27,678 nt of DNA, from positions 1 to 27,678 of IMG/VR virus record IMGVR_UViG_3300048918_000581. The stretch is one strand, 5' to 3'. Each line of letters starts with the position of its first letter. Position 1 is the stretch's first letter. A program made the position numbers and the translations under genes. The DNA comes from a virus. Under the pieces are notes generated by a model. It was not told the origin of the DNA. It did no database searches and saw only the letters and a list, made by a program, of their open reading frames with translations. Below, in pieces: positions 16,686 through 27,678 of the stretch.

Positions 16686-17939
16686 TCAGGATCTCTCCCC
16701 CGTCCGCACCAAGTAGCTCAGCAGCGTCATCGTCTTGCGGCGCTTCCAATATTCCCAGCGCGTCACATGGGTCTCGCCGTCGATCTCGGCGCGGATCTCG
16801 AACACGGGCACCTTGTGGCCTTCCGACACGCCGACATAGCGCGGCACACTGCCGAGCAGCTCGGGCAGCCTTGCGAAGTCGGCCGGCACGATCGCGCGTT
16901 GGCCGCGGCCGAGCTCGCCGGCCTGGTCGCCATGCGAGGAACGGATATGGGCGACCTCAGACGGCGACAACGAGAAGTCGAAGCCGGCCGCGTCGAGGTT
17001 GCGATCGGCGCCGATCGCCGCGACCTGGTCGGCGGTCAACAGGCCGAGCGTGCGCCCCGGATCGCCCGTCGGCCGCTCGTCCCACACGCGCTGGGCATAG
17101 CGACGGGCGTCATCGGCAACCGAGGGCAGCTCGCGATAGGCACTCGCCAGCGCGTCGCGCTGGGCCTCGGGCACTTCGTCCAGGAACGCCTTGCCGATGC
17201 GATAGTCCCAGCTGCCGATCTTCTCGGCCATCGCCCGCACGATCGGCGCCACGCTGGCGCCCGGCGCATAGCCCCAGCCTTTGCCGATGCCCGCCGGCGT
17301 GCCGGTCGCGGGCAAGATGATGTTCCAGCCCTCGGGCAGCTTCTTGCCCGGATCGCCGCCCAGGCGGATCGCGGCGCGCACGCTTCGCGCGCCGGAGACG
17401 TAGCAGGAGCAGCCCCAGGCGGAGGGCGGATAGTGGGTGATCCAGAACGGATGCGACGGCTCGAGCACGAGCCCATTCCACGACAGATGCTCGGGCCGCG
17501 GCTCCTTGGAGTTGCCGTGGAAATAGACCCAATAGGCGAAGCCGCCGGCGCTGAGTTGGGCGAAGCGACCCGCGGCGTAGCTGGTCGCTGCATTGGTTCG
17601 GTAGATGGTGCGCGTGCGCCAGGCGCGGCCCGCCTTGGTGTCCTCACCAGTCCAGCCATGCCAGCCATTGCGCTGGACAATATCGCGGAAGTCCTTGCGG
17701 AACGCGCCCAGACTCTTGCCCTCGGCGATCGCGCGATCGACGGCGACGGCGAGATCCTGGAGCAGATCCGCCTTCATCGCGCCGGCGACCATGAAGGCTT
17801 CGTCGTGCGCCTGGGGCTCGAGGTCGGTCCAGCGCCGCGTCGGTACCAGCTTGCCGAGCTTCCGGCGGAAGAACGCGATCTGCTCCGGGAACGGCTTCTG
17901 AAACGCCCCTGAGAGGGCGCTCGGATGCCGCTCAGGCAC
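16686..17939 (-). CDS. Mu F-like minor head protein with a C-terminal barnase/EndoU-type nuclease-like domain
   Basis: This 417-residue protein starts at GTG 17939, overlapping the portal gene by 8 bp. Residues 1-185 are the F/SPP1 gp7 head-morphogenesis region: helical start, RTRTIYRTNAATSYAAGRFA, and RPEHLSWNGLVLEPSHPFWI leading into HYPPSAWGCSCYVS. Residues of about 296-414 form a separate domain: VAHIRSSHGDQAGELGRGQR (His331, His336), FARLPELLGSVPRYVG, PVFEIRAEIDGETHVTRWEY and TLLSYLVRTG. That layout fits phage-associated barnase/EndoU/ColicinE5-D/RelE-like (PBECR) nuclease domains known as fusions to phage head proteins. The fold call is mine; activity is unproven. Confidence 0.85.
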   Translation of the reverse strand: MPERHPSALSGAFQKPFPEQIAFFRRKLGKLVPTRRWTDLEPQAHDEAFMVAGAMKADLLQDLAVAVDRAIAEGKSLGAFRKDFRDIVQRNGWHGWTGEDTKAGRAWRTRTIYRTNAATSYAAGRFAQLSAGGFAYWVYFHGNSKEPRPEHLSWNGLVLEPSHPFWITHYPPSAWGCSCYVSGARSVRAAIRLGGDPGKKLPEGWNIILPATGTPAGIGKGWGYAPGASVAPIVRAMAEKIGSWDYRIGKAFLDEVPEAQRDALASAYRELPSVADDARRYAQRVWDERPTGDPGRTLGLLTADQVAAIGADRNLDAAGFDFSLSPSEVAHIRSSHGDQAGELGRGQRAIVPADFARLPELLGSVPRYVGVSEGHKVPVFEIRAEIDGETHVTRWEYWKRRKTMTLLSYLVRTGERS

Positions 17940-24018: not shown

Positions 24019-24281
24019 TGGCCGCCTCCCGCTGTGGTTTCGAGCTGGACGCGGTCGGCGTGATTGCGCGCGTAGATCGCGGTGACGGTGGCGCCCAAAA
24101 CGCTGGCCCAGCCGAGACCGAACTTCACGCCATCGAATACGCCCGTCTTGGCGTAGTCTGCGATCGACAGGCCGAGGAAGGTGACGCCGCCCAGGAGGCA
24201 AAGCAGCCGGACGATGTCCAGATACTCGTTGCGCCCGCCGTACAGCAGATCCTTGAGCAGCTTTGCGAGCGCGGCGATCAC
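24015..24281 (-). CDS. Putative holin
   Basis: This 88-residue protein directly follows the endolysin (GTGA overlap, GTG start at 24281). It has an amphipathic N terminus (IAALAKLLKDLLYGGRNEYL), helix 1 (DIVRLLCLLGGVTFLGLSIADYA), a short loop and helix 2 (FGLGWASVLGATVTAIYARN), then a hydrophilic tail. Two helices with both ends likely cytoplasmic would fit a class II holin, which forms the hole that releases endolysin. The assignment rests on topology and location, since holins share little sequence. Confidence 0.78.
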   Translation of the reverse strand: MIAALAKLLKDLLYGGRNEYLDIVRLLCLLGGVTFLGLSIADYAKTGVFDGVKFGLGWASVLGATVTAIYARNHADRVQLETTAGGGQ

Positions 24282-24928
24282 TTGCCCAGCTCCGCAGCGC
24301 GTCGGAGCCAGCCCTTCAGGAAGCGCTGCTGGCTGGGATCGGCCGCGACGATCGCGCGGTAGCGATCAGCCGCCGCCTCGCGATACTCCTGAATCAGCAG
24401 CGACATCCCGCAGCCGGGCGCGGCCAGCACCAGGTCGCACAGCGCCCGCGTCGCCGGCCCGATCTGGCCGTCCACCAGTAGCGGCGCGGTATGCGCCGGT
24501 ACGCACGCGGAGGCGGCGTTGAGCGCGCGCTGGAGCAGCTTGCGTGCGGCAGTCAGGCCGCCATTGACGCCCTGGTCGAACATCGCCTCGCCTAGCGGCG
24601 CCGGCAGATCGTCGCAGCCCAGCCGCTTCCAGAAGCAACGATGGAAAAGCGAGAGCGCGTCATTCGGCTTCAGCGCCCGGATATCTGCGCCGTCGATATC
24701 GCCGTCCATGTCCAGGTCGAAGTCGGCGAAGCCGTCTCCGTCCAGATCAACCTTGCCCTCGGAAACGAGGAAGCGCAGCGACACGCCGTACTTCGTCTCG
24801 CCGCCGCGATCGCTAGGATCGTTGACGTGGCCACCCTCGATGCCGAGCACACGCCCGCCCGCAGCACGGAAACGCGGCGACCATGCCGCGACGACGATAT
24901 CGCTCTCGGTAGCTTCCACGATGCCCAC
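24278..24928 (-). CDS. Endolysin, GH108 muramidase with an EF-hand-like insertion
   Basis: This 216-residue enzyme carries the GH108 catalytic signature VLGIEGGHVNDPSDRGGETKYGVS, with Glu31 as the expected acid. Between the catalytic core blocks lies an acidic insertion (61-83) with two Ca-loop-like segments; the second, DLDMDGDIDGAD, has D at loop positions 1, 3, 5 and 12 and Gly at 6. The C-terminal part (DGQIGPATRALCD) is a peptidoglycan-binding module. It has no signal peptide, so release needs the holin. The start is GTG 24928, or possibly GTG 24919, for which GGGGTGG would be the ribosome site. Confidence 0.92.
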   Translation of the reverse strand: MGIVEATESDIVVAAWSPRFRAAGGRVLGIEGGHVNDPSDRGGETKYGVSLRFLVSEGKVDLDGDGFADFDLDMDGDIDGADIRALKPNDALSLFHRCFWKRLGCDDLPAPLGEAMFDQGVNGGLTAARKLLQRALNAASACVPAHTAPLLVDGQIGPATRALCDLVLAAPGCGMSLLIQEYREAAADRYRAIVAADPSQQRFLKGWLRRAAELGK

Positions 24929-25038: not shown

Positions 25039-25404
25039 TCAGTTATCGAAGAGGGAAAGTTGGTTGGCGCTGCCCTTGGCGGGCGCGTCCGGTCGGCGAA
25101 GGAACAGCTTGTCCACGCCGCTTTCGGTGATGCCCAGCTTGCGCGCGATCTCGGCGTTGCTGAGTCCCTGGCCGCGATAATGCAGGGCGCGTTGCTCGCG
25201 TGCAAGGGGCACGCGCAGCACGGCAGGCGCGAAGCGGCGCGACAGGCGCAGCGCGCGGACCAGGCCGACCGCCTTGGCGATCTCATGATCCTCGTCCACC
25301 TTGTGAGGAACGTACAGGCGCGTGCCCCCGAACGCCTGGGTCAGCCCGACGAAGCCATCTTCGCCGAGCATCGCCAGAAGTTCGCCCGAGAGCTCGCCTG
25401 CCAT
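25039..25404 (-). CDS. Mor/C-family late transcription activator
   Basis: This 121-residue protein has the Mor-type opening GLTQAFGGTRLYVPHKVDEDHEIAKAVG, in which GGTRLYVP is the family mark of the dimerisation domain. A helix-turn-helix follows at about 78-101 (GQGLSNAEIARKLGITESGVDKLF). It lies between the gp16 block and the lysis genes, as Mor and C do in Mu, where they bind near -35 and recruit RNA polymerase. Only one activator gene is seen, so it may serve late promoters directly. The last residues include QLSLF (115-119), identical to the consensus beta-clamp-binding peptide. Confidence 0.9.
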   Translation of the reverse strand: MAGELSGELLAMLGEDGFVGLTQAFGGTRLYVPHKVDEDHEIAKAVGLVRALRLSRRFAPAVLRVPLAREQRALHYRGQGLSNAEIARKLGITESGVDKLFLRRPDAPAKGSANQLSLFDN

Positions 25405-25405
25405 A

Positions 25406-25666
25406 TCAGTCGAGCGTCCGGCGCGGATCGAGGGAGAAGTAGCGCGAGCGCTGTCCCAGCTTGGGCAGCACCGTGGTGACCGTCCCGCCGCGCACGATGT
25501 ACGAGAGATCTTCGGAACGGATCGAATAGTTCTCGACGCCGATCAGGATGACCTTCTCATGGTGTGGCGAGAAGCGCGCCTGAAGGTCCAAGCGGATGGC
25601 CTCCACGTTGATGCCTTCCGCCCGCTCCAGGTGGCGCAGCAGCGCGTTGTCAGAAATCGCGATCAT
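25406..25666 (-). CDS. Unknown early protein, 86 residues
   Basis: I prefer the ATG at 25666 because it overlaps the preceding stop (ATGA), the style of this operon. An in-frame ATG at 25681 would add five residues. The protein opens IAISDNALLRHLERAEGINVEAIRLDLQARF and ends with strands NYSIRSEDLSYIVRGGTVTTVLPKLG. An N-terminal helix pair with a small beta-sheet is likely. Similar short proteins occur next to mor in other Mu-like phages as far as I recall, without known function. It is in the early block, so a regulatory or host-takeover role is possible. Confidence 0.75.
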   Translation of the reverse strand: MIAISDNALLRHLERAEGINVEAIRLDLQARFSPHHEKVILIGVENYSIRSEDLSYIVRGGTVTTVLPKLGQRSRYFSLDPRRTLD

Positions 25667-25869
25667 GCCCGATTTGCCCATTCAGGATATTGGGGATTGG
25701 CCGGCTCGCCCGGGATCGGTGCGAGCGGCAACGCGGTGGCGCAGAAGGCGCACTCGGCCGAGCTGCGGCCGATGACCCAATGACTGCCGCCGCAGCCGGG
25801 GCACGCGGTGTTGGTGCGGTAGGCGGGCCGGTAACCGGTCAGCGCTTGGCGGATGCCGAAGTCGTACAT
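25663..25869 (-). CDS. Small zinc-ribbon protein
   Basis: This 68-residue protein starts at ATG 25869, sharing one base with the gp16 stop (TAATG). I reject the longer frame upstream because it runs through the gp16 gene. Two knuckles, CPGC (23-26) and CAFC (40-43), spaced by 13 residues with WVIGRSS between, make a compact zinc ribbon. The C terminus is proline-rich (LAPIPGEPANPQYPEW). Zinc ribbons of this size commonly bind nucleic acid or protein. Its exact role in the early operon is unknown. Confidence 0.8.
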   Translation of the reverse strand: MYDFGIRQALTGYRPAYRTNTACPGCGGSHWVIGRSSAECAFCATALPLAPIPGEPANPQYPEWANRA

Positions 25870-26627
25870 TACGACACTCCCTTGGTTTGGCGGAGGACAC
25901 GGCCGAGCTCGCGCGCGACAATGTCGAGCTCGCTGCTGCTGGCGAGCAGGATGCTGATTTCCATGCCGCCGAACTCGAAGGCGGCGCGCGCGGCTGACCA
26001 GCTGCTCGGCACGGCATCGACGGCCTGGAGCTTGAGCAGGATCGCGTCGACTAGCCGCCGCTTGAGGACCAGGACATGGGCGTCGGGCTTCACCCCGCTC
26101 AGATCCTGGCTCCAGCCATCGCGCTCGGCCATTTTTTTGAGTGCTTCGATCAGGCCGGACATGTGCCCCTGATCCGCCCACTGGAGCGCAGTGCATCCAA
26201 GCTGGCGGCGGCCGAAGGCCTCGAGAGCCCTCTCAGAGGCATCGTCGATCACGCCGAGCGCATGGAGCGAGATCCACAAGGCGCGCGCCTTGCGGGCCGG
26301 CGCATGATCGGCACGGCGCGGCCCGGTGCGGCCCTGCGGCTTATCCGATTCCCAGCCACGGGCACGGAAATGGTCGATCACGTCGCCGAGCTGCTCGACG
26401 CTGCAGTCGCCAGCGCTGCGCTTGCCGGTGACGTCGAGCAGGATCGCCCGGTAATCATCATCGGTGAGACCGAGCTTCTTCTTCGCGATATGCACCATGG
26501 CCAGCAGACGCCTCGAGGCGGCGCTGGCACCCGGCTTGGCCGCGTCCGACACAGGCTGGCGCCTGCCAGGCATGCGCGTCACGCCGGCGAACCGGCCAGC
26601 GCCGAAGATGGTGGCGCCGGACTTCAT
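25869..26627 (-). CDS. Mu gp16 / GemA-like protein
   Basis: This 252-residue protein contains the gp16 pattern at about residues 40-95: LLAMVHIAKKKLGLTDDDYRAILLDVTGKRSAGDCSVEQLGDVIDHFRARGW. Then come RKARALWISLHALGVIDDASERALEAFGRRQLG and a C-terminal helical extension. In Mu, GemA/gp16 is an early protein reported to affect host DNA gyrase and gene expression. The ATG overlaps the upstream stop (ATGA). The final 80 residues (VLKRRLVDAILLKLQAVDAV onward) go beyond the core domain and are unassigned. The basic N terminus may be a shorter protein if a later ATG is used. Confidence 0.9.
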   Translation of the reverse strand: MKSGATIFGAGRFAGVTRMPGRRQPVSDAAKPGASAASRRLLAMVHIAKKKLGLTDDDYRAILLDVTGKRSAGDCSVEQLGDVIDHFRARGWESDKPQGRTGPRRADHAPARKARALWISLHALGVIDDASERALEAFGRRQLGCTALQWADQGHMSGLIEALKKMAERDGWSQDLSGVKPDAHVLVLKRRLVDAILLKLQAVDAVPSSWSAARAAFEFGGMEISILLASSSELDIVARELGRVLRQTKGVS

Positions 26628-27067
26628 GCGTGCCTCCCGCGAATTGCGGTGGCGAGCTTGTCCGTCACCTGCCGGAAAGCCGGGTCGCTATCGCGCATCT
26701 CGATCGCTCGGCTGATCGCGTTCCGGATCGTCGAGTGATCGCGGCCGTTCAGCGCGCGCCCAATGCCCATCAGCGAACGCCCGCAGACGGTCGATGCCAG
26801 CCAGACGGCTGCGAACCGGCCGCGCGCGATGCGGCGCTCGCGGCTGTCGCCGATCAGCTCCTCGGCGCTGAGCCCCATCTCGAACGCGACGAGCTCGGTA
26901 ACTTCGCGCACGGTCGGATCGATCTTAGGTGGAACATATGCCGGGGCTTGGACCGTCGAGAGATCGGTGATCCGGACGGTGCCGAACATCTTCTCGAGGC
27001 TCTGCCGGGCGATCAGCACCGGATCGGGCCACATGCCCTCGTCGAGCACGATTGCTAGCGTGATCAC
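26624..27067 (-). CDS. Stand-alone DnaA domain IV (DnaA-box-binding) protein
   Basis: This 147-residue protein starts at GTG 27067 (GTGA overlap with the MuB-like gene). Residues of about 50-130 match DnaA domain IV: VTELVAFEMGLSAEELIG, RERRIARGRFAAVWLA (basic loop) and SLMGIGRALNGRDHSTIRNAI, which aligns with the DnaA signature GRDHTTV whose Asp-His contact the DnaA box. The AAA+ domain is absent, so it cannot assemble as an initiator by itself. The first 50 residues are unrelated. It could guide transposition to replication sites, compete with host DnaA, or act as a regulator; the sequence does not decide. Confidence 0.88.
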   Translation of the reverse strand: MITLAIVLDEGMWPDPVLIARQSLEKMFGTVRITDLSTVQAPAYVPPKIDPTVREVTELVAFEMGLSAEELIGDSRERRIARGRFAAVWLASTVCGRSLMGIGRALNGRDHSTIRNAISRAIEMRDSDPAFRQVTDKLATAIRGRHA

Positions 27068-27678
27068 CGGCGCCTCCGTGCATCGCTGGTGCGACTCGCG
27101 ATCGCTTGCTTGATATGCTCGACCTCGAGCACCGTCTCGGCTCCGATCGCGGCGATGTTGGCCGACTCGAGTACCTGCCGGATCTCGCGCAGGCCGCCAT
27201 GGGCAGGAGAAAGGCCCACATCGACCAGCAAGCGCGTCATGGCGGGATCATCGATCCCGTTGGCATCGAGGAACGCGAGGATATCCTCTTCGAGCGGCAC
27301 GTCCTGGACGTGGAAATAGGCGAGCCGGCTATTGAGGCGCGCATAGGCATGACCTTTGGCATTGCCGCGGATGCGCTCAACTAGCTCTTCGTTGCCGAGC
27401 AGCATCACGCCTAAGCCGGCCTGGTCATGCCAGGCGCGCAGCTCCTCCATCGCCTCGAATGCCAGGTGGTTCGCCTCGTCTGCGATTAGGAGCATTTGCC
27501 GCCCACGCACATGTTCGCGAACCTGGGCTGACCGCTGCGCGACCCAGCCGGACGGACCGGCGAGCTGCATGGCGCGCATCACCTCGGCAATCATGGCGCT
27601 TACGGTCTTGGTCGATTGGCTGAACTCGACATGGACGACACTGTTGCCCATGCTCGCCTTGTAGAAGGCCGCGGCCTC
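27064..27678 (-). CDS. MuB-like transposition target-selection ATPase (5-prime partial)
   Basis: The frame is open to the window edge (EAAAFYKAS precedes the internal ATG at 27651), so the true start and the Walker A motif lie outside. The visible 204 residues carry Walker B (RQMLLIADEANHL), a sensor-like VMLLGNEELVERI and the C-terminal GGLREIRQVLESANIAA region. MuB-type AAA+ proteins bind target DNA as ATP filaments and deliver it to the transposase, which should be encoded just upstream. The stop overlaps the DnaA-like gene (GTGA). Confidence 0.88.
   Translation of the reverse strand, partial: EAAAFYKASMGNSVVHVEFSQSTKTVSAMIAEVMRAMQLAGPSGWVAQRSAQVREHVRGRQMLLIADEANHLAFEAMEELRAWHDQAGLGVMLLGNEELVERIRGNAKGHAYARLNSRLAYFHVQDVPLEEDILAFLDANGIDDPAMTRLLVDVGLSPAHGGLREIRQVLESANIAAIGAETVLEVEHIKQAIASRTSDARRRR

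Follow-up and report, generated by a model that had tools for sequence, protein, structure and literature searches.

The Mor/C-like activator encoded in the window, as we call the whole 27,678 nt stretch of DNA that was analysed (positions 1 to 27,678 of the IMG/VR virus record IMGVR_UViG_3300048918_000581), carries near its C-terminus the pentapeptide QLSLF, which has the form of a bacterial sliding clamp-binding motif. Such a motif has persisted in most of the Mor/C family of transposable phages, both Mor and C of phage Mu among them. Judged from the sequences compared here, a clamp-binding tail is very likely a family-wide property of Mor/C-like activators. The explanation that we consider best overall, and that we favour with modest confidence, is that this tail binds the beta sliding clamp of the host (DnaN) and so ties middle and late transcription to replication.

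The genes of the window follow a Mu-like order, MuB, GemA, activator and endolysin (Table 1), with the activator gene placed between GemA and a lysis gene, the endolysin, which is the probable start of the late/lysis genes. Profile matches showed that the window also encodes a Mu-type portal and F protein. Contigs that hold close relatives of the activator come from Aurantiacibacter, Hephaestia, Sphingomonas, Mesorhizobium and similar alphaproteobacteria, and the host of this phage is therefore probably one of these bacteria. Other genes of the window, all on the minus strand, deserve mention. The small protein encoded just upstream of the activator (25406-25681) belongs to phrog_8252, a family whose label gives no function. 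The protein encoded between MuB and GemA (26624-27067) has a DnaA domain IV-like helix-turn-helix (Bac_DnaA_C, E 7.3e-15), and might bind DnaA boxes. In the Mu F-like protein (16686-17939) a weak C-terminal PBECR3 nuclease-like match was seen (E 6.6e-4, below the curated cut-off).

Table 1. Coordinates of the features of the window; the product of the gene in the first line is the window activator of the text.
Feature	Position	Strand	Basis
Mor/C-like (phrog_836) middle/late transcription activator gene, 121 aa + stop	25039..25404 (stop-free 25404-25042)	-	ORF translation, phrog_836, tail-free profile match
Predicted helix-turn-helix, residues 69-102 (helices 69-78, 83-90, 94-102)	25099..25200	-	AlphaFold2, weak HTH/sigma-4 matches, structural HTH matches over model residues 67-110
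Predicted flexible linker, residues 103-114; 6-20 residues in homologues	25063..25098	-	pLDDT ~50-70; linker lengths in 35 aligned sequences
Putative clamp-binding motif QLSLF, residues 115-119, then D-N + stop	25048..25062	-	Translation, Q115 invariance, family statistics, codon variety
GemA, Mu-like phage context marker	25869..26627	-	PF06252 E 9e-32
MuB-like transposition protein (C-terminal part), context marker	27064..27651	-	PF09077 E 1.5e-10, phrog_296 E 2e-34
Endolysin, directly downstream of the activator gene	24278..24928	-	PF05838 E 1.4e-19, phrog_315 E 1.7e-34

The sequence-only reading, which preceded this analysis, had named the protein a Mor-family activator, and this name holds in its wider sense. 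The window activator matched phrog_836 ('late transcriptional activator') with an E value of 6.4e-17, residues 8-119 being aligned to positions 18-132 of the 133 in the profile, and the same profile detects Mu Mor (E 1.2e-10) and Mu C (E 2.1e-11). In a profile-profile comparison (hhalign) from which the tails had been removed, the window group matched 16 Mu-type Mor/C proteins with a probability of 94% over 61 columns, all in the helix-turn-helix half. Weak HTH/sigma-4 profile matches were also obtained. These profiles support the assignment of the window protein to the Mor/C-like activators of Mu-like phages. Pfam Mor membership in the narrow sense was rejected, since PF08765 was absent from its matches at E<=0.01; Pfam and NCBIfam searches gave no confident family. 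Because the assignment is made through phrog_836 and the tail-free profiles, and without a PF08765 match, we call the protein Mor/C-like and not a Pfam Mor member.

Translation of the ORF bore out that QLSLF occupies residues 115-119 of 121 in a C-terminus that reads ...GSANQLSLFDN. The motif itself, from Q115 to F119, corresponds to bases 25062..25048, whereas the span first given to it, 25039-25062, also takes in D120, N121 and the stop. The published motif of bacterial clamp ligands has a pentapeptide form, Q-phi-x-[LM]-[FL], and a hexapeptide form, Q-phi-x-[LM]-x-[FL], with Ile tolerated at the last position and with a second position that tolerates changes, Leu being favoured (PMC11139829). 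QLSLF fits the first of these forms, and its description as a canonical clamp-binding consensus was therefore correct. With the composition of this protein, QL[SD]LF would be expected by chance about 4e-5 times in the 14 tail positions. In the AlphaFold2 model, which was made of the monomer only, the block-mean pLDDT is above 90 for residues 11-100 and ~50-70 in the tail (~50 for residues 111-121). The motif is thus predicted to lie in an accessible, disordered segment that follows the helix-turn-helix, as had been proposed from the letters. Foldseek and VIA-align searches with this model gave mainly generic HTH domains, with alignments that cover model residues 67-114. The PDB has chains named Mor and C (1rr7, 9l0y, 9l0x, 9vw8), and no Mor/C structure was among the matches listed for the predicted model.

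The sequence-only reading had pointed to homologues as the place to check the pentapeptide and would have fallen if close ones lacked the tail; there it is kept, in close and distant ones alike. Removal of exact duplicates reduced 138 homologue rows to 125 distinct ones; rows were also dropped when they were short HTH matches in unrelated proteins (L034-L041), belonged to a large unrelated ORF (L008/L009), were cut by contig ends (L087/L088) or had an in-frame stop (L126/L156). We scored the last 25 residues of each protein, both for a strict motif (the published forms) and for a relaxed one (any residue at position 2), and enrichment was measured over 2000 shuffle rounds on 80 representatives whose cores, with the tail removed, are below 60% identity to one another. 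The strict motif was present in 25/80 representatives and the relaxed motif in 45/80, while the shuffled tails gave means of 0.78 (maximum 5) and 5.0 (maximum 13), respectively; note that these shuffles overstate independence, since the sequences share ancestry. The other 25-residue blocks of the same proteins carried the strict motif in 1/264 and the relaxed motif in 7/264 cases, and the C-termini of other mechanically derived ORFs from these loci in 7/645 and 15/645. At loci with GemA, 38/86 Mor-like tails passed the strict and 67/86 the relaxed pattern, compared to 0/88 of the GemA C-termini for either. The GemA control, like the position counts below, was made on the set without the RQLSFF group and L059.

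The composition of the motif was also examined. Of 71 pentapeptides, 44 have D or S at position 3 and 65 have F at position 5, as in QL[SD]LF. Q115 is invariant in 35/35 sequences of alignment A3, some of which share as little as 30% identity with the window protein, although this is no family frequency because A3 comprises the window protein and 34 hand-picked homologues, with the motif-less L026, L033 and L085 left out. On the tree of the 35 tail-free cores, the tail changed at least 5 times between the pentapeptide and hexapeptide types, and 2/35 tails are of neither type. Synonymous codons are used within the motif (CAG/CAA; CTC/CTG/CTT; TTC/TTT), which argues for conservation of the peptide and not of the DNA. 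Of eight IMG/VR matches listed as close, two are unrelated; the other six end in QLSLDI, in RQLSFF (four contigs) or in RQPSLFGD, and the RQLSFF group (L003/L004/L006/L007) fails both patterns. The relaxed motif is missing in 35/80 representatives, 16 of which lie beside GemA. In some GemA-adjacent homologues (L103, L104, L116, L145 and others) the tail ends in PLPLF, APSLF or TPDLF, with the LF kept and the Gln lost; these could be either decayed or Gln-less clamp motifs.

Next, we looked at whole genomes, where loci were found with phrog_836; its profile contains the tail columns, so motif-bearing matches may be favoured in these counts. Sixty loci, among the matches listed, were translated, and PF08765 loci, which lie mostly in the same places, were not added to the counts. 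The named records comprise Mu with 15 of 58 matching records, 2 of 8 in a further set and five more, the remaining rows being mostly near-identical. Mu Mor ends in QPSLL, and QPDLF lies close to the C-terminus of Mu C. Among the GenBank phages, the tail is QLSLF in ThpS-P1, QLKLPL in Mwe-Yong1, QLALF in BalMu-1, QMRLF in RC1, QADMF in B23, QFDLF in RR1-B, QMSLL in FP_Mushu, QLPLF in RcapMu and QGSLF in POA1180; further phages have QPELF, QPNLF, QRDLF, QRRLF, QGKLF, QMPLL, QGKLDL, QGDLF, QFDMF or QMDLF. The motif was missed in HXX_Dennis, FoX5, Arya, Kp4866-3 (QYSLDM), MT836460 (EPDLF) and Mae-JY22. Only 10/30 named records passed the strict pattern, because position 2 in the Mu-type branch is often P, R or G and not aliphatic, and the clamp affinity of such tails may be low.

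The presence of the motif follows that of GemA. Among the named records it was found in 24/27 with GemA and in 0/3 without (Fisher p 0.005); in six of these 27, nothing matched the domain model of the Mu transposase. The 80 representatives gave a similar picture, with the motif in 38/54 that have GemA nearby vs 7/26 that do not (p 3e-4), where short flanks may hide GemA. HXX_Dennis, FoX5 and Arya (L016, L207, L208) encode Mor-like activators; GemA, the C-terminal domain of the Mu transposase and the tail motif are all absent from them, and they constitute a natural contrast set.

A second motif, of the DLF type, was observed near the N-terminus of Mu-type Mor/C proteins (for instance at L017 1964-1990, which is Mu C, and at L193, L194 and L199): QHDLF in Mu C, QDDLF in Pmp9, QSELF in HS6, QLDLL in MuM16-1 and TEDLF in Mu Mor. 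Within their first 25 residues, 9/25 named proteins contain the pattern [DESN][LMI]F (shuffle mean 1.1; 0/5000 rounds reach 9). The enrichment of the form that begins with Q is weak (5/25 named proteins; shuffle mean 1.8). Possibly each monomer in this branch has a second clamp motif.

How would such a tail work? We propose that the disordered C-terminal tail of the Mor/C-like activator inserts into the hydrophobic pocket on the host clamp. Since the tails take the two forms, pentapeptide and hexapeptide, that are published for clamp ligands of bacteria, we infer that they bind DnaN, and we regard this step as highly probable. Transposable phages, Mu included, copy themselves with the host replication machinery, and therefore the clamp would be at hand. 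Because clamps stay on newly copied DNA, the activator would in turn be concentrated on replicating phage copies, a step towards which we lean only slightly: dimers of the activator would gather on the clamps left behind on freshly copied phage DNA, and the middle and late promoters would be activated as replicative transposition proceeds. The arrangement would be T4-like, with the host clamp and a sigma-70-dependent activator in place of the phage clamp and the phage sigma factor. By analogy with T4, such coupling through the Mor/C tail is plausible, and the recurrence of the tag suggests that late gene expression in Mu-like phages may be linked to the copying of their DNA. Activation of Pm by Mor has been obtained in vitro with RNA polymerase, in assays that are described, in the text available, without clamp (PMC4287176). 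Since Mor works there without added clamp, the contact is expected to enhance or localise, and probably is not an absolute requirement.

Clamp binding could, however, serve other ends. The tail might compete with host ligands and so slow host replication or repair, or it might assist loading of the replisome at the Mu ends, in the hand-over from the transpososome; we consider this rather unlikely. In its favour, the Caulobacter toxin SocB inhibits replication by filling the clamp pocket (PMC9690074), C-terminal clamp motifs are reported in transposases of several IS families (PMC4549789), and the motif tracks GemA. It is found, however, in a transcription activator, and not, in its strict form, at the C-terminus of any other window ORF examined or of GemA. 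Moreover, two separate activators of Mu have it.

Another possibility could be that the tail contacts RNA polymerase (the alpha-CTD, sigma region 4 or the beta flap) and resembles a clamp ligand by convergence. Mor activation needs the alpha-CTD and the C-terminal regions of sigma-70 (PMC4287176), and the tail directly follows the helix-turn-helix. Yet the alternation of QLxLF with QLxLx[LFI], the persistent Gln and the D or S at position 3 make up the published signature of clamp ligands, and the three homologues without GemA and the Mu transposase domain, which also need RNA polymerase, have no tail motif (3/3). We therefore find this explanation improbable. The preference for D or S at position 3 and F at position 5, the switching between pentapeptide and hexapeptide, and the transposable-phage context point to the clamp and not to another partner.

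Short hydrophobic C-terminal tags can also stabilise dimers or signal to proteases, with no replication partner, and the fact that 40/88 motif-bearing distinct tails end exactly at the last residue of the motif would suit such a function. In the other tails, however, the motif lies up to 14 residues before the end (range 0 to 14), the linkers vary in length, and the segment is predicted to be disordered, albeit in a model of the monomer, all of which makes a dimer or protease tag very improbable. Finally, a single pentapeptide in a single protein would be weak alone, but the family-wide enrichment over shuffles and matched controls contradicts a chance or low-complexity resemblance, whose probability we take to be negligible.

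Late expression of Mu depends on replication. If the clamp tether is real, this dependence gains a molecular handle in the best-known transposable phage. A role of the sliding clamp in transcription is known from T4, and a 2022 review presents transcription activation by a sliding clamp, in the part available, as a unique role of T4 gp45 (PMC9690074); Mor/C activators that use the clamp of the host would be a new case of such a role. No link between Mor/C and a clamp motif was found in titles and abstracts of the open-access literature, a scope outside which most subscription papers fall, among them the classical Mu transcription papers and any on 9l0x/9l0y, and in the accessible parts of the open-access literature on Mor/C we found no text that treats the tail as a motif for clamp binding. 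Should the tail of Mor/C bind DnaN, phages of a second, wide group would act in a T4-like manner with the clamp of the host, and a sequence-specific transcription activator would join the bacterial clamp ligands. The broadest form of this proposal is that Mu-like phages as a class use the host clamp as a co-activator or localiser for middle and late transcription, with Mor/C dimers tethered through their C-terminal motifs (in the Mu branch perhaps also through N-terminal ones) to the clamps on new phage DNA, as a second solution separate from that of T4. To this general form we give no more weight than to its opposite.

How does the window activator compare with the systems already known? With Mu Mor/C (phrog_532 / PF08765) it shares the order GemA-activator-lysis, the phrog_836 profile, a helix-turn-helix towards the C-terminal side and a tail comparable to QPSLL/QPDLF; it differs in having no PF08765 match at E<=0.01 and in carrying a fuller consensus motif. 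Bacterial beta-clamp ligands (Pol II, Pol IV, Hda and others) have the same short linear motif, which is C-terminal in some of them, but they are replication and repair proteins, and no sequence-specific transcription activator is among those named in the part of the source available (PMC11139829). The transposases of IS1634 and other insertion sequences are likewise mobile-element proteins with a C-terminal QLxLF-like motif, and their clamp binding has been shown experimentally (PMC4549789); these proteins, however, are transposases and not transcription factors. We know of no homology of Mor/C to gp33 or gp55 of T4. Nevertheless, the parallel with late transcription in T4 (gp55, gp33 and the clamp gp45) holds in anatomy: in both gp55 and gp33 the segment that binds the clamp is C-terminal and sits on a linker (PMC7892883, PMC2988020), as the window activator carries a clamp-type motif, here a predicted one, at the end of a flexible linker. 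In T4 the clamp is phage-encoded and trimeric, gp55 is sigma-like and gp33 does not bind DNA alone, whereas the clamp proposed here is the dimeric DnaN of the host.
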